Assembly: GCF_001277995.1 (NCBI RefSeq)
Contig: NZ_CP009220.1
Coordinates: forward strand, 496,001 to 560,000
Source of the DNA: Corynebacterium deserti GIMN1.010
Lineage (GTDB): Bacteria > Actinomycetota > Actinomycetes > Mycobacteriales > Mycobacteriaceae
Reading direction: 5' to 3'
Length of the DNA: 64,000 nucleotides
Shown in pieces: positions 54,955 through 60,449 of this stretch (within the stretch, counting starts at the first letter, position 1; each line of letters begins with the position of its first letter). Under the pieces are notes generated by a model that was given only the letters and a program-made list of their open reading frames with translations, was not told where the DNA came from and did not search any database. The position numbers and the translations under genes are program-made.

Positions 54955-55847
54955 TCCGCTTCCAGTTCGTTGACGACGCCAAGAACAGCCATTCGGTCAA
55001 GCGGTTATGTGAGGTTCTGAAACTCAACCGGTCCTCGTACTACAAATGGAGAAACACCTCCTCCGCCAGGACACAACGCCTGCTCAGCGACGCGATCCTC
55101 GGCGCACGGGTCAAGGCCGTGTTCGCCGCAGAACGCGGCTGCTACGGCTCCAAACGCATCACGGCGCAACTCAACGACGACTCGCCCGGCAGTCCGGTCA
55201 ATCACAAGAAAGTCGCCCGGATCATGCGCTCGTTGCAACTGGTTGGCTACTCCAAGAAACGCAAGGTCACCACGACTGTCTCGGATGGGAGGAAGCCGGT
55301 GTTTCCGGATCTCGTCGGCCGGAGGTTCACCGCCCCGGCACCGAACCAGGTCTACGTCGGCGATATCACGTACCTGCCGATCGCGGACGGGTCGAATATG
55401 TACCTGGCCACGGTCATCGACTGTTTCTCCCGCCGGCTGGTCGGCTTCGCGATCGCCGATCACATGCGTTCTTCCCTGGTCCAGGACGCCCTGGTGATGG
55501 CCAAGGGCCAGCGCGGAAGTCTCGACGACGCAATTTTTCACTCGGACCATGGCAGTGTCTACACTTCCCATGCGTTCCAGGACACGTGTACGCAGCTGGG
55601 GATCCGGCAGTCGATGGGCGCGATCGGCAGCAGCGCTGATAACGCCCTGGCGGAGTCCTTCAACGCCGCGTTGAAGCGTGAGGTCCTCCAGGACGCAAAG
55701 ACGTTTGCCAATCAGTTGCAGTGCCGGCGAGTTGTTTTCCGCTGGTGTACCCGCTACAACACCACGCGTCGGCATTCCTGGTGCGGGTATCTCGCTCCAG
55801 CAGTGTTTGAGGAGCAATGTCCTGTTACGCTGAGATCTGCTTCCTGA
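54951..55847 (+). CDS. IS3-family transposase OrfB (DDE integrase)
   Basis: 298 residues from GTG 54951; its frame is -1 to orfA and stays open back to 54714, so a fused OrfAB by programmed frameshift is possible. The DDE triad is visible: Asp in VYVGDITYLP, Asp in FHSDHGSVYT, Glu in NALAESFNAALKREV. The HTH_21 segment ERGCYGSKRITAQLND precedes it. It appears intact, so the element may still be active. Confidence 0.92.
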   Translation: MIRFQFVDDAKNSHSVKRLCEVLKLNRSSYYKWRNTSSARTQRLLSDAILGARVKAVFAAERGCYGSKRITAQLNDDSPGSPVNHKKVARIMRSLQLVGYSKKRKVTTTVSDGRKPVFPDLVGRRFTAPAPNQVYVGDITYLPIADGSNMYLATVIDCFSRRLVGFAIADHMRSSLVQDALVMAKGQRGSLDDAIFHSDHGSVYTSHAFQDTCTQLGIRQSMGAIGSSADNALAESFNAALKREVLQDAKTFANQLQCRRVVFRWCTRYNTTRRHSWCGYLAPAVFEEQCPVTLRSAS

Positions 55848-55884
55848 TCACATCCCCCGTGTCTACTTTCCGGGGGTCGGGCCC

Positions 55885-56307
55885 CAACGCAACAAGGTTG
55901 TCCAGCCAAGGCGCGAGCATTTCCGTTCGATGTTCGCCAATCCGAAGAAGTTGAGCAGGCTTGACATACTCCAGTTCGTAAAAGGTTCTTGCCTCCAGCC
56001 GGTCGGTGAACTTGGCGGCATGTAGCCAGAACACTTGGTCGATAACGTAGTCGAGATCAAGGCAGATCGTTGTCACGGTCACGAAGCCTTCCGGTTCATA
56101 GCCGAACATGGCATTTGACCCCAATGTGATGACGTCTCCAACGTTCGACTGTTGCACACCCAGCTCGTTGTGCAACAGAACCGATCCGGCACGCACGAAG
56201 ATCAGCCTCGCGCAGTCTTCTGCGGAGATCGGGCCAGCGGTACGAAAAGTTCGGCTTCGAGCCACTAAAGGCTCGAAGCCGAACGTCCGGGATATTCCCA
56301 GAGCCAT
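55885..56307 (-). pseudogene. AraC-family regulator of the cargo, 3'-truncated by the IS
   Basis: ATG 56307, five bp after the MFS stop. About 140 residues of an AraC-type N-terminal sensing domain remain (ARLIFVRAGSVLLHNELG, GDVITLGSNAMFGYEPEG, LEYVKPAQLLRIGEHRTEML). The frame then runs into the IS end (GPDPRKVDTGDVI...) and stops at 55825. The DNA-binding domain is lost. It is unrelated in sequence to the disrupted host AraC. Confidence 0.85.
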
Positions 56308-56312
56308 CGAGG

Positions 56313-57575
56313 TCAGTCTGCGTCTAGTGGTTGACTGTCCTCGGTCTGGCGCATGCGCCCGGCCAGCAATGCGATCAACGCGAGAGCTGGCGGAATGACT
56401 CCCGCAATCACAAAGATGATGGGGATGGGAACCAACAGTGAGAGCGGCCCTGCGATGGCGATTGAGACCGGCATGAACGCGATCGAAACGAAGAAGTCGA
56501 GGCTGGCGACTCGGCCGATCATGTCGAGCGGCACCAACCGTTGCAGCAATGTTCCCCACACGACAACGCCAGCCCCGGTGAGTGCACCGACGACAAAGAG
56601 CGCGGAGAGCATAAGGATCAAATTGTCGGCAACGCCAATGACCACAAGAGGTAGTGTTCCTCCACCCCAGCACAGGATCATAAACGTCAAGTACCGACGA
56701 GGAAGCTTCAACGACGACACGATCAGCGAACCGACAGCCCCACCTATCCCATAGGCGGCCAGAAGGAACCCGAAAGTAGCTTCAGCATCCTCGAATCGGT
56801 CGCGGGTGAGGAACGGGAGGAGAACTTCGATCGGGCCTTGGACAATGAGCGCAAGCGAAGACCCGAAGATCAGCGTCCAAAGCAACCAGCGTGTACGAGC
56901 CACGTAGGCAACCCCCGCACGAAGGTCACCCCAGACGGTCGGGCGATCCTCGGGAGGAGTGGGCTCAGTGTGTTCGTCACGACGGCTAAGAAACAACGTG
57001 ATGACGAAAGCAATCGCGTACGAAGCCGCGACGATGACCGCTCCGATAGCGGGGAAGAACATACCGACGATGACTCCACCGAGGGCCGGGCCCAGCCCTT
57101 GCCCCATCGATGGACGGAGCGCCCCTTCGAGCCCATTCGCGGCCAGGAGTTGCTCCGGCGGAAGGACCACAGGTAGGTAAGCGCTGTACGCAGGGTAGAA
57201 AAAGGCGCTCCCGGCACCCATCGCGAACGAGGCTGCGGCGACGTGCCAAAGTTCGATATTCCCGGTGAGCGACAGGACCGCCACGGCGGTCATGATCGCG
57301 GCCGTTGAGCCCTGCACTGTAATGAGAATCCGCCGTTTGGAGAACCGGTCTGCGACAACCCCACCGAGAACGGAGAACGCAAACAGGCCAAGACTCATTC
57401 CGGTTGCAACCGCCGACAAGGCAAGTGGGCTGTCATCGAGTGCGAGTACTTGGAAGACCATGACGATCGTCCACATACCGGTCCCGAATACCTCGATGCC
57501 GACGGCGGCAAACAGGAGACGGTAATCACGTGATGCCAATGGGCGGAGTGCGCGTAGCTTGATGGTGTTGCTCAT
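56313..57575 (-). CDS. MFS exporter, drug-efflux type
   Basis: 420 residues, twelve membrane helices, MFS_3-like. It opens with [25 protein letters not shown] and carries the loop motif [15 protein letters not shown] between helices 2 and 3 (near residue 72). Its ATG overlaps the ABC-F stop (ATGA), so translation is coupled. By family and partner an antibiotic exporter is likely, comparable to Mef; the drug is unknown. Confidence 0.88.
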
Positions 57576-59227
57576 ACCAGTGCCTCGCCTTCAGCCATCG
57601 CCATCAGATGTACATGAGGCCATTGGGCGACATCGCGCAGGAGTTGCCGATCGTGGGTCGACAGTACGACGGCCGCTTGGGTAGCCCCGAGTGCCTCGGT
57701 GAGTTCGTCAACGAGCGCGATGGAGAGGTGGTTGGTGGGCTCGTCTAGTAGTAGCACGTGCGGGCGTGCCGCGAGTACGAGCGCCAGATCGAGGCGTCGT
57801 TGTTGACCCATCGACAGTTCACCCACTCGTTTGCCTGCCTCGCGCGATCGCAGCAGTCCAAGTTGACCGAGACCGACCGCCTCAGATGATTGAAGCGTTC
57901 CTTGACCGACGAGTTCGTCGAGGTGTCGGGCGTATACCTCGTTCGCCCGGCGATCAGGCGGCAGCATCGTCTCCTGACGAAGAAAACCCAAACGCGTGCC
58001 ACGGGATGTCCGCACTGTTCCCGTATCTGGCAGTAGTTCGCCCGCCGCGATACTCAGGAGCGTCGACTTTCCGGCCCCGTTCGAGCCGGTGACCACGAGC
58101 CTGCCGCGGTGCGAGAGTTCGAACGACACTGGCTGCGCTAACCGCCCGGCAAGGCTCACGTTGTCGACGTTTAGTAGCACCGCCCCTTTTCGTGTGGGCA
58201 GGTCGGGGAACTGGAATAGCTGCGGTGGTTCAGGTACCGTCACCGCGTGTGCTTCGAGTGCTTCCTGGCGTCGGTGCACGCTCTGCACCAGCCCGCCCGC
58301 GCGCGTCGCGCGGCCGTGCTTCGGTGACCCCTTCTCCGGTCGCCAACCCGATACGAGTCGGTTCTGTGCAGCGCTGAGACTGTCCTGCAGCCGGGCTTGT
58401 TCCTGCTGCTGGCGGTCGTACTCCTGCTCCCAGCGTTCCCGCTCGGCCACGCGCCCTTCTCGGTATCCCGCGTACCCGTTGCCGTAGATGCGGGGGCGAT
58501 CATCAGGTGTCGGATCGAGGTCGACCACCGTCTCCGCAATGTCAGAGAGCAGCGCGCGATCGTGGCTGACGATGACGACACCACCGTTGCGCGTGCGGAG
58601 TTGCATGGTCAAGAAATCAAGTCCGCTGCGGTCGAGGTGATTGGTGGGCTCGTCCAGCAGTAAGAAATCATCTTCAGCCCCCAACAGGCAGGCCAACCGC
58701 ACTCGATATCGCTGCCCCACAGACAGATCAGCGAGCAACCGCGTCATGTCGGTTTCGGCGTCGAGTGCTTCGAGCGCGATTTGTACCCGGCGCTCGGCAT
58801 CCCAAGCGTCGAGCGCTTCCGCATCTTCCAAGGCCGCAGCGTACTGCTCTGCGGCCTCGCTACTCCCTTCCGCGAGAGCGGCAGCGGCGTCGTCGAGTGT
58901 GGCCAGCGCTGCGAGCGGTTCGGCGATGGCCTCCGCGACGGCCTGCCCAACGGTTCGGTTGTCGGTGGAGTCCATCTCTTGTTCAGCGAGCCCGAGCGTG
59001 CCGATGCGCTGGATCGTTCCACTATCAGGTACCAGCGTGCCCGCGAGCGCGTGCAGAAGTGTGGTCTTTCCGCGCCCGTTCTCTCCGACGATCGCCACAC
59101 GGGACGCGGGAGTGACGACGAGATCGACATGGTTGAGCACCGGGGTTACGCCTCGCATTACGGAGACGTCGGAAGCGGTGAGTTGCGCGCGATGGCGCGC
59201 CGGATGACGGTTAGTAGGGGTAAGCAT
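57572..59227 (-). CDS. ABC-F protein, probable ribosome-protection resistance factor
   Basis: 551 residues with two ABC domains and no membrane part. First domain: Walker A GENGRGKT (48-55), signature LSVGQ (168-172), Walker [13 protein letters not shown] (188-199). A charged interdomain linker (about 255-335) is the part that reaches the ribosomal P/peptidyl-transferase site in resistance ABC-F proteins. Second domain: [33 protein letters not shown] lies 6 nt before the ATG. A leader ORF with hairpins precedes it. It is placed with antibiotic-resistance ABC-Fs by context; sequence alone does not exclude a housekeeping EttA-like role. Confidence 0.88.
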
Positions 59228-59366
59228 TCAAATCCTTCAGCAAGGCGCACCACGACGAGCCAAACAGCCAGCGGGCACGCAAATGACGGGGACCCTTCCA
59301 GGGTCAGAACGAGCGGCCGTCGCTAGCTCGGAGTTGCTCAACGAGCGCGGTAGGCCTACTCAACCG
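59228..59366 (-). promoter_or_regulatory. Attenuator-like hairpins before the ABC-F gene
   Basis: On the minus transcript GCTCG pairs with CGAGC (59325-59345), and the same CGAGC can pair instead with GCTCG at 59309-59313, so the two stems exclude each other. GACCCTGGAAGGGTC (59291-59305) is a further hairpin. Close to the gene, CCTTGCTGAAGG (59232-59243) can close over the AAGG ribosome site. No T-run follows, so control of translation is as likely as termination. Confidence 0.55.
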
Positions 59367-59387
59367 TCACAGGAAATACAAATGCAT
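59367..59387 (-). CDS. Six-codon leader peptide MHLYFL
   Basis: ATG CAT TTG TAT TTC CTG TGA on the minus strand, 139 bp before the ABC-F start. The ATG lies 6 nt after the -10 TACACT, so the ORF would begin at the 5' end of the mRNA. It is the same length and type as the msr(D) leader MYLIFM, which stalls ribosomes in the presence of macrolides. Function inferred from position and similarity. Confidence 0.6.
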   Translation of the reverse strand: MHLYFL

Positions 59388-59393
59388 GCTTCC

Positions 59394-59423
59394 AGTGTAC
59401 CCCATAAGGTCGGCAACGCTCAA
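59394..59423 (-). promoter_or_regulatory. Promoter of the ABC-F operon
   Basis: Minus strand TTGAGC (59418-59423), 18-nt spacer, TACACT (59394-59399). The predicted start falls on or next to the leader ATG at 59387. It lies between the truncated tetR and the ABC-F gene, so it survived the deletion. Confidence 0.6.
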
Positions 59424-59473
59424 TCCCCACCTCCGCAACCAAGCATGTAAATGTCGATAGCAGTGCCGACCTC

Positions 59474-59797
59474 TCAAAGCAGACTGCGAAGCGACGCAAG
59501 CCACCGCTGGCGCGTCTCTTCCGGTGATTGTGACCGGCCCGACACCTCAGTAGCGAGAGAGAGGTAAAGCCCCACGAGAATCTGTGGACGCAAGTCAGAT
59601 GTGTCGGCGGGGTCTATGCCGAGGCGGCGAACGTAGGCATCGCGCAGCCGGATGCTAAGTGACTCATGGAGGTAGGCGAGTTGGCGCTGAACGCGCGCAT
59701 CGTCGCCAAGCTGATTGCGAATCGCCTGTCGTCGCCTGTCCAATTCGGTCGTCGGGATCAAGAAGAGTTGCGCAGTCGCCCAGTCAAGCGTCTCGAT
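59474..59797 (-). pseudogene. TetR-family repressor, 5'-truncated
   Basis: Only about 107 C-terminal residues remain (ETLDWATAQLFLIPTTELDRRRQAI... to RQRWLASLRSLL), a TetR-type helical ligand-binding half. The sequence upstream of 59797 is the IS remnant, so the helix-turn-helix and the promoter are lost. In the donor it probably repressed the downstream ABC-F/MFS operon; here it cannot bind DNA. Confidence 0.8.
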
Positions 59798-59930
59798 CGC
59801 TACAACACCACGCGTCGGCATTCCTGGTGCGGGTATCTCGCTCCAGAAGTGTTTGAGGAGCAATGTCCTGTTACGCTGAGATCTGCTTCCTGATCACATC
59901 CCCCGTGTCTACTTTCCGGGGGTCGGGCCC
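59798..59930 (+). mobile_element. 133-bp remnant of the IS right end
   Basis: Matches 55752-55884 of the complete copy base for base, except C to A at 59847 (Ala to Glu in the OrfB tail). It includes the right terminal inverted repeat. The junction at 59797/59798 marks a deletion that removed the rest of this IS together with the 5' part of tetR. Confidence 0.92.
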
Positions 59931-60449
59931 ATGCTCCTGATTGGAAATGAACTCCGGGACGCACTCGCTAACTTTCTCACCGACGAGGCTTCACCAACCT
60001 ATGCGTCACAGCTGCTACGGGCGCTCAATAATGCGTCTGAGATTGTCCCGTTTGTGTTCCCTAAGTCCCCTGAAGCCTGGACGGTGGCGTCGCACATGTG
60101 GGACAACATGCGCGAGCACTCCTCGATTGATGAGTTAGCCAAGATGGTTCATGTGTCGTCAAGAACTCTCGGCCGGCAATTTCTCGCTGAGACCGGTATG
60201 ACGTTTAACGAATGGAGAAGGGAAACTCGGTTCGCAGGAGCATTTGATCTTCTGAAGGGGCCAGAAGAGGTGTCTATTGAATTCGTTTCGCACGCCGTCG
60301 GCTTTACCAACGTCAGTTCTTTTACTCGTGCCTTCCGAAAGCGTTTTGATAGAACCCCTGGGCAGATCCAACGTGCACAGGCCACGAGACGCAAAGCTAC
60401 TCAGCAAAATATGAAGGCAGAGAGGGCCCAGAGGTCAAGAAAAGCCTAA
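59931..60449 (+). pseudogene. AraC-family regulator, 3' fragment (DNA-binding half)
   Basis: 172 codons beginning with the duplicated ATG. It contains the full AraC double helix-turn-helix: SSIDELAKMVHVSSRTLGRQFLAETGMTFNEWRR and VSHAVGFTNVSSFTRAFRKRFDRTPGQ. It continues the 54347-54571 fragment in frame when the transposon is removed. The ATG could in principle start a sensor-less DNA-binding protein, but only a G-rich stretch precedes it. The 3' end overlaps the convergent siderophore-binding gene by 4 bp. Confidence 0.9.

Follow-up and report, generated by a model that had tools for sequence, protein, structure and literature searches.

Predicted leaderless leader peptide complementary to the ribosome-binding site upstream of an ABC-F gene in Corynebacterium deserti and related loci

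Upstream of an ABC-F gene of Corynebacterium deserti GIMN1.010 lies a 160-nt leader that opens with a six-codon open reading frame (ORF), MHLYFL. The gene was analysed within a stretch of 64,000 nucleotides (contig NZ_CP009220.1, positions 496,001 to 560,000), referred to here as the window. We propose, with a probability of about two in three, that this leader is a drug-inducible translational attenuator, in which the MHLYFL frame would lock the ABC-F start until a drug-stalled ribosome covers the frame. Sequence comparison revealed the frame, its spacing from a -10-like box, the conservation of this arrangement, the complementarity of the frame to the ABC-F ribosome-binding site (RBS), and covarying inner helices. 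By analogy with the msrD leader, stalling would be expected at or near the last codon in the presence of a macrolide-like drug; the nature of the inducer, the ON state, and the freeing of the ABC-F start codon are likewise inferred.

Conservation of the leader ORF and its placement

The initial annotation described a six-codon MHLYFL ORF starting 6 nt after a -10 box and preceding an ABC-F gene, which would place a leader peptide at the 5' end of the RNA. Both statements agree with the sequence (Table 1), as does the more general proposal of an attenuator-like leader; the distance from the leader start at 59387 to the ABC-F start codon at 59227 is 160 nt. To follow the arrangement across genomes, 87 ABC-F loci, nearly all actinobacterial, were compared: the window, a Glutamicibacter plasmid, 30 of the 35 loci from named contigs, a further 29 found among 201 genomes belonging to the window's genus, 25 found among 394 belonging to its class, and one, with an ABC-F protein of 41% identity, from a pattern search. 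The counts leave out L040–L044 (25–33% identity), 5 of the 35 genus matches that came without a given locus, and repeats of counted loci (L074, L075, L077, L104–L106). The layout was defined as an ORF of 5–22 codons in the 350 nt upstream, with its ATG or GTG 6–7 nt after TANNNT.

Of the 87 ABC-F loci, 84 had this layout, compared with 25 of 3480 control windows taken from other parts of these loci. Adding a peptide of class A (short, ending in an aromatic residue plus leucine) or class B (longer, with R/K-x-R/K) gave 74/87 loci and 4/3480 control windows. The latter count used the spacing filter; a separate spacing analysis did not, and took 41 class-A loci chosen by peptide alone after removal of near-copies. 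The -10-like box preceded the leader start by 6 nt in 25 of these and by 7 nt in 16, while other offsets between 0 and 25 nt yielded single matches only, at 4, 11, and 24 nt. A spacing of 6–7 nt is the promoter geometry expected if RNA synthesis begins at the start codon.

Pattern searches pointed to the same genes. The MHLYFL DNA pattern was found in 4 of 242 genomes of the genus, the window's included, each time just upstream of an ABC-F gene (reversed control, 0), and box plus MHLYFL in 3 of 296 genomes of the class, again including the window's, each before one of these ABC-F genes (controls, 0). The peptide appears constrained, with MHL[YF]FL encoded in 29 of 33 leaders collected by a loose DNA pattern while codons 3–6 and the stop vary, and MHLYFL is retained in L076 before an ABC-F gene of 41% identity. 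No such ORF occurs in the 350 nt upstream of the match in four ABC-F paralogs of the same genome (L002–L005); L006 was not counted as a paralog control, its match beginning at residue 161 with the upstream stretch inside the gene. A short conserved leader ORF precedes a resistance-type gene. With the frame placed alike in 84 of the 87 loci, drug-inducible control of resistance by such leaders appears to be widespread and open to testing.

The -35-like element of the window is weak, deleted in L010 and L015 and altered in L012–L014 and L029, and a sigma-70 consensus scan returned no promoter. The promoter call therefore rests on the -10 box and its kept position. BLAST homology between cassettes starts at 59387, the A of the leader AUG; the leader of the window and that of L017 are 97% identical, whereas the preceding 60 nt agree at 58%, compared with 57% for unrelated 60-mers. 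Unrelated promoters have been joined at the predicted transcription start; promoters have been exchanged and the start point retained. At the 41 class-A loci there was no signal of a Shine–Dalgarno (SD) sequence before the leader start codon (mean duplex energy -2.86 kcal/mol, compared with -3.11 kcal/mol at random positions). Both a transcript start at the leader AUG and leaderless initiation are predicted.

Two side observations concern the same region. In the window (59387), L009, L016, L017, and L018, cassette homology ends at, or no more than 17 bp from, the leader start codon. In 19 of the 78 listed loci, an A/T run of at least 4 begins 31–33 nt before the -10 box (L031, L033, L035–L038, L061, L080–L083, L085–L087, L089, L090, L094, L095, L097), among them Nocardioides, Kibdelosporangium, and Amycolatopsis genomes, and is absent in the window. 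This position corresponds to that of WhiB7/WblC boxes, which suggests double control in those 19 loci.

Predicted pairing between the leader ORF and the ABC-F ribosome-binding site

Folds and duplex predictions set two parts of the leader ORF against the ABC-F RBS, one on the start region and one on the SD core AGGA, forming a clamp (Table 1). The leader ORF was paired with the RBS in the folds of all 18 aligned leaders of the window's group. With nt 1–33 masked, the stretch that a ribosome stalled on the end of the leader is assumed to cover, the unpaired probability of the ABC-F AUG was 0.35–0.98 in the 18 leaders, compared with 0–0.15 in free RNA. In the window it went from 0.00 to 0.98. 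Compared with its shuffles, the leader of the window is more stably folded by 2.5 standard deviations. The RNA feature that is kept across distant loci is base-pairing between the leader ORF itself and the SD plus start codon of the ABC-F gene.

Beyond the window's group the clamp appears in other registers, as in L047, where UGUAUUUCCU matches AGGAAAUACA, and perfect leader:RBS complements reach 10 nt in L052 and 9 nt in L068, L076, and L095. Duplexes were evaluated in 40 of the 41 class-A loci (L082 was left out, its main start having been wrongly picked). Cognate pairs averaged -13.7 kcal/mol and non-cognate pairs -11.0 kcal/mol, none of 5000 permutations was as low, and the RBS was the strongest partner window of the leader in 29 of the 40. 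Permutations as low were also rare within a mixed group of seven loci, six of the window's genus and one of its family (3/5000), and within a group of 17 comprising Nocardioides, Amycolatopsis, Kibdelosporangium, and others of the class or order (8/5000). As SD-complementary codons pair with any SD, the evidence lies in the permutation result and not in the raw energy.

In the folded class-A leaders, at least 8 leader:RBS pairs were expected in 34 of 40, and masking for an end stall raised access to the SD in 32 and to the AUG in 31. Duplex energy defined the SD window of the masking test, a fixed distance that of the expected-pairs test; the SD values of the window therefore differ between the two.

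Several observations weigh against this reading. Two loci, L084 (62% identity) and L102 (49%), have no leaderless ORF of the defined layout in the 350 nt upstream; the third miss among the 87, L019, labelled an Oscillospiraceae metagenome-assembled genome (MAG), is cut at a contig end. Anti-SD-like codons such as UUC CUC fit any SD, which makes part of the complementarity trivial, and in the 16 closest loci, those of the window's group, cognate duplexes were no better than swapped ones (877/5000 permutations); the attempt to separate codon constraint from antisense constraint failed there. Fewer than 4 leader:RBS pairs were expected in 6 of the 40 class-A loci (L033, L035, L037, L051, L072, L078), and the occupancy-dependent structure seen in folding predictions has these 6/40 exceptions. 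The masked fold of the window frees the AUG and not the SD (0.32 to 0.35), which a hairpin of -2.2 kcal/mol covers. Modelled stalls at the start codon and at the end of the leader free the site to a similar degree, the former exposing the AUG slightly more; the model therefore does not tell where the ribosome would stall. In a control on 15 of the 18 leaders, the clamp also survived shuffling of the leader middle; it can therefore form independently of the inner helices, which supports leader:RBS complementarity instead. Lastly, the count of further standard pair types in those helices did not exceed that of shuffles (458/500).

Inner helices and competing explanations

Between the two ends of the leader lie inner helices, with 94.6% of cells paired overall. 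Their covariation was 0.140, compared with 0.115 for shuffles (0/500), and reached at most 0.079 when the helices were slid. One pair of the stop-codon stem has changed from G-C to A-U through substitutions in both arms in 3 of 20 sequences, and 2 sequences have lost it. The inner helices are supported by covariation. An Rfam search at E values up to 1 found no covariance-model match for the leader, nor any in four relatives.

An unlikely competitor is transcription attenuation, in which the drug-free RNA would end early, by an intrinsic or a Rho-dependent route, and a stalled ribosome would let the polymerase pass. The cited passages report msrD, vmlR, vga(A), lmrC, and others as transcription attenuators (PMC10314930, PMC8546547, PMC12421871), the GC-rich GACCC/GGGUC hairpin is conserved, and Rho could act on a long untranslated leader. 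However, a terminator scan found no intrinsic terminator in the leader and no U tract follows any leader hairpin, so that the terminator plus U tract that precedes the gene in msrD/vmlR-type attenuators is not seen. Early termination would also leave the cognate leader:RBS complementarity unexplained.

Less probable still is a classical erm-type translational attenuator, whose switch would be the elements proposed in the initial annotation, two hairpins competing for CGAGC and a small stem over the SD. Both CGAGC pairings can be written in the window, the first GCTCG partner keeps 5/5 pairs in 17 of 20 leaders, and on masking the AUG opens while CGAGC and its surroundings pair anew. The CGAGC competition was rejected as the main switch, as no more than 9/20 leaders have the second partner in full. 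The small stem does exist, with 4 bp; as the main switch it is weak (-2.2 kcal/mol), and it has a counterpart in 6 of the 20 leaders, the window included.

We regard it as very improbable that the role of the short ORF is to supply the operon with ribosomes, or that what it senses is an amino acid instead of a drug. Leaderless ORFs are common at mycobacterial operon starts, and cysteine-rich ones have been proposed as attenuators (PMC4633059). The leader, however, has no run of a single amino acid, and the distance to the ABC-F gene, 101–222 nt in class A with L082 set aside, is long for coupling; moreover, the pattern matches lie before ABC-F genes and the peptides mirror known drug-arrest peptides. 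Chance or an annotation artefact, to which the commonness of short ORFs and the looseness of TANNNT might point, is refuted as to conservation by 84/87 against 25/3480 and by a spacing kept in 41/41.

Proposed mechanism

In the translational model that we favour, translation of the leader would begin with a ribosome binding directly at the 5'-terminal AUG. In drug-free cells this ribosome would finish fast, and the leader would re-pair with the RBS, keeping ABC-F shut. With drug the ribosome would stay on the leader, the antisense strand would be occupied, and the ABC-F start would open. The stop-codon stem and the three hairpins could bring the leader ends together, and Rho-mediated loss of full-length transcript may add to the OFF state. 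This switch is simpler and better supported than the one in the initial annotation, whose interpretation holds up in part.

A broader version of this model, to which we lend somewhat less than even credence, would extend it across actinobacteria: one 5' stretch of ~21–27 nt would serve as transcription start, sole needed ribosome-loading site, arrest peptide, and antisense lock. Promoters could swap freely as long as the -10 box keeps its 6–7 nt, and each ABC-F clade would have a leader class, MsrDL-like or ErmDL-like, suited to its drug range. If the attenuator works as proposed, a leaderless start would be a standard actinobacterial design of ABC-F drug sensors, with leader peptides like the streptococcal and bacillar ones set in a different, minimal RNA design. 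It would also give a predicted inducer class for many uncharacterised actinobacterial ABC-F genes and make testable whether ribosomes started on a leaderless AUG arrest with drugs in the same way.

Two leader-peptide classes

Class-A peptides include MHLYFL, MHLFFL, MQYLFFL, MQYLYFL, MIQQLFFL, MIQSVLYL, MHLPLYL, and MFPLLFL, and resemble the MsrD leader. Class-B peptides, such as MYSGIASMKLRSAR, MMYTGIASMRLRSCR, MLTASMRLRFRA, and MFTGFVSMACTASMRLRLAA, with motifs such as ASMKLR and TASMRLR, resemble the ErmD and MefA leaders. For comparison, the msrD leader is MYLIFM, the mefA leader MTASMRLR, and ErmDL MTHSMRLRFPTLNQ, as given in PMC10314930. Classes A and B are thus counterparts, in peptide sequence, of the pair of leaders found in a single streptococcal operon.

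A quick maximum-likelihood tree of 60 ABC-F proteins, in which 22 of 57 inner branches are open, placed class B in one clade (SH-aLRT 99), and one change explains the A/B distribution. Some tree labels were given by eye: L050 as A, and L059, L065, L069, L071, and L099 as B. Although its peptide looks like class A, L050 misses the pattern and lies outside the class-A test set. Class-B spacing was not used as a statistic, as the wrong ORFs were picked for L065 and L066.

On plasmid pTP10 of C. striatum (L103), the ORFs before erm(X) and cmx each start 7 nt after a -10-like box (Table 1) and look leaderless too; the former is presumably the described erm(X) leader peptide. The suggestion in the initial annotation that a leaderless leader peptide of this kind is not known to have been described in corynebacteria needs trimming, because these two ORFs share the layout and leaderless attenuator ORFs are known in mycobacteria. 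The erm(X) leader is followed by CCGGGCGG and GCCCGGCTC, each of which recurs in 21 of 25 class-B-like loci (e.g., L055, L096), with 5/62 and 0/62 in other loci, respectively. By this recurrence, a single attenuator module seems to be common to erm(X) and class B, placed before a methyltransferase gene in the one and before ABC-F genes in the other.

Downstream genes and genomic context

The 551-aa ABC-F protein carries PF00005 in two stretches, with no membrane family listed, which places it in the ABC-F family. Its best models were that of TlrC/CarA/OleB/SrmB (NF000171; 322 bits, cut-off 800) and a ribosomal-protection-like model (NF000355; 319 bits, cut-off 380), both below the cut-off for membership. 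Among 10 relatives, 5 scored 307–335 with NF000171 and the other 5 were not listed at E 1e-90. Over residues ~8–534 it aligns to solved EttA and YheS chains; because these nearest structures are of YheS/EttA type, nothing was learned about drug range. The MFS exporter that follows has Tet(V) as its nearest model, under the cut-off, and matches Mef models weakly. With an ABC-F gene and an MFS exporter of weak Mef similarity, the operon has a gene content like that of mefA-msrD, in the opposite order.

Table 1. Positions of the predicted leader elements, downstream genes, and plasmid pTP10 leader ORFs.
Feature	Position	Strand	Details
Leader ORF MHLYFL, ATG CAT TTG TAT TTC CTG TGA	59387..59367	minus	predicted leaderless, RNA 5' end within ~1 nt of A
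-10-like box TACACT	59399..59394	minus	6 nt (GGAAGC) 5' of leader ATG; 6–7 nt in 41/41 non-redundant class-A loci
-35-like TTGAGC	59418..59423	minus	weak, unconserved; 18 nt from -10
Clamp 5' arm 1, GCAUUUG of leader	59379..59385	minus	predicted to pair with ABC-F start region; folds and duplex
Clamp 5' arm 2, UCCU of leader	59371..59374	minus	predicted to pair with SD core AGGA; folds and duplex
Clamp 3' arm	59224..59236	minus	SD core AGGA 59236–59233; UGAAUGC around ABC-F AUG 59230–59224
Stop-codon stem 5' arm UGACGG	59364..59369	minus	helix 96.6% of cells paired
Stop-codon stem 3' arm CCGUCA	59284..59289	minus	pairs with UGACGG
Hairpin CGC-GCUCG...CGAGC-GCG	59321..59349	minus	93.8% of cells paired
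Hairpin GACCC...GGGUC	59291..59305	minus	loop variable in relatives; without U tract
Hairpin GCGUGCC...GGUGCGC	59245..59280	minus	98.6% of cells paired; both-side changes at two pairs
Small CCUU/AAGG stem over SD, CCTTgctgAAGG	59234..59245	minus	4 bp, -2.2 kcal/mol
ABC-F ribosome-protection-type gene, 551 aa	59227..57572	minus	two ABC_tran stretches; 322 bits to TlrC/CarA/OleB/SrmB model
MFS exporter gene	57575..56313	minus	start overlaps ABC-F stop by four bases; 486 bits to Tet(V) (cut-off 640)
ORF before erm(X), C. striatum pTP10 (L103)	3116–3069	minus	TATAAT, 7 nt, MLISGTAFLRLRTNR
ORF before cmx, C. striatum pTP10 (L103)	from 17221	minus	TAGAGT, 7 nt, MSSPESDRSGVVGHTASPLNH

The operon and its leader lie in a 3925-bp module (55876–59800) that is 98.4–99.7% identical in Leucobacter, Microbacterium, and a Propionibacterium MAG, while a Candidatus Agrococcus MAG holds 3642 bp of it. 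Direct repeats of 133 bp (99.2%) derived from an IS3 end flank the module at 55752–55884 and 59798–59930 of the window, and in two Rothia genomes (L011, L030) it likewise lies between 133-bp IS3-end repeats. Plasmid matches to the neighbouring IS3 element came from Corynebacterium in 6 of 8 records, and phage records contained no match to the cassette. The ABC-F/MFS operon appears mobile on this sequence evidence, with the leader travelling along; the near-identical 3.9-kb cassette in other genera implies that the control module travels with resistance-type genes.

Partial genes flank the module. On the minus strand, 59474–59863 is a short ORF fused to the IS3 end with a TetR-type C-terminus by eye (no Pfam hit), and 55825–56312 encodes an AraC-type N-terminal part, again by eye and with no Pfam hit; on the plus strand, an AraC-type C-terminal domain with a Pfam hit starts at the repeat (59931–60449). 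In L045 and L046, two tRNA-like genes (by eye) lie on the plus strand on the 3' side of ABC-F, a possible insertion site.

Comparison with known systems

Leader-peptide control of ABC-F genes is common, with msrD, vmlR, vga(A), and lmrC as examples. PMC10201436 calls for wider study of ABC-F leaders and states that homologues were too few to predict the leader of the actinobacterial Ard1. Among the matches listed from the open-access literature, judged by titles and abstract openings, none reported a leaderless drug leader of an ABC-F gene; with preprints and subscription journals outside this search, that is no proof of absence.

The closest counterpart of the MHLYFL leader is the msrD leader, MsrDL, which according to the passages of PMC10314930 is likewise a six-residue hydrophobic-aromatic peptide before an ABC-F gene in an operon with an MFS exporter, the gene order of mefA-msrD being the reverse of that in the window. 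MHLYFL and MYLIFM, whose resemblance the initial annotation had pointed out, have the same length and share 3/6 residues (M1, L3, F5), a likeness and not a membership. In contrast to MsrDL, which lies inside the operon transcript and acts through a Rho-independent terminator, the window ORF stands at the predicted RNA 5' end, shows no terminator, and is complementary to the RBS. The erm(X) ORF of pTP10 shares the box spacing of 7 nt, an RLR motif like that of class-B ABC-F leaders, and CCGGGCGG and GCCCGGCTC with class B; it precedes a methyltransferase gene, whereas the window leader belongs to class A and has other RNA elements.

The actinobacterial genes lmrC, tiaA, and are5sc (ARE5) are ABC-F genes controlled by upstream ORFs (uORFs) in the passages cited (PMC8546547, PMC12421871), as is predicted for the window gene. 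Unlike the window leader, the leader ORFs of tiaA (MVGDDDISG) and are5sc (MLV) are each preceded by a ribosome-binding site and come with predicted terminators, premature termination has been mapped in lmrC at a terminator overlapped by uORF2, and these passages do not describe the ARE5 attenuators as leaderless.

Attenuator ORFs at an RNA 5' end are known from other pathways. Canestrari reportedly described polycysteine leaderless short-ORF attenuators of this kind in mycobacteria in 2020. The trpL ORF of S. meliloti also lies at the RNA 5' end (PMC7298713), as predicted here. Both the mycobacterial ORFs and trpL are amino-acid attenuators, not drug-arrest leaders before ABC-F genes. Pairing of leader codons with the SD of the controlled gene has in turn been proposed for the LEU element before actinobacterial leuA (PMC1262725), as we propose for the MHLYFL leader. 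The LEU element differs in preceding a leucine gene and in having a pseudoknot and a leucine codon run, and the mutations cited in that source speak against classical attenuation.
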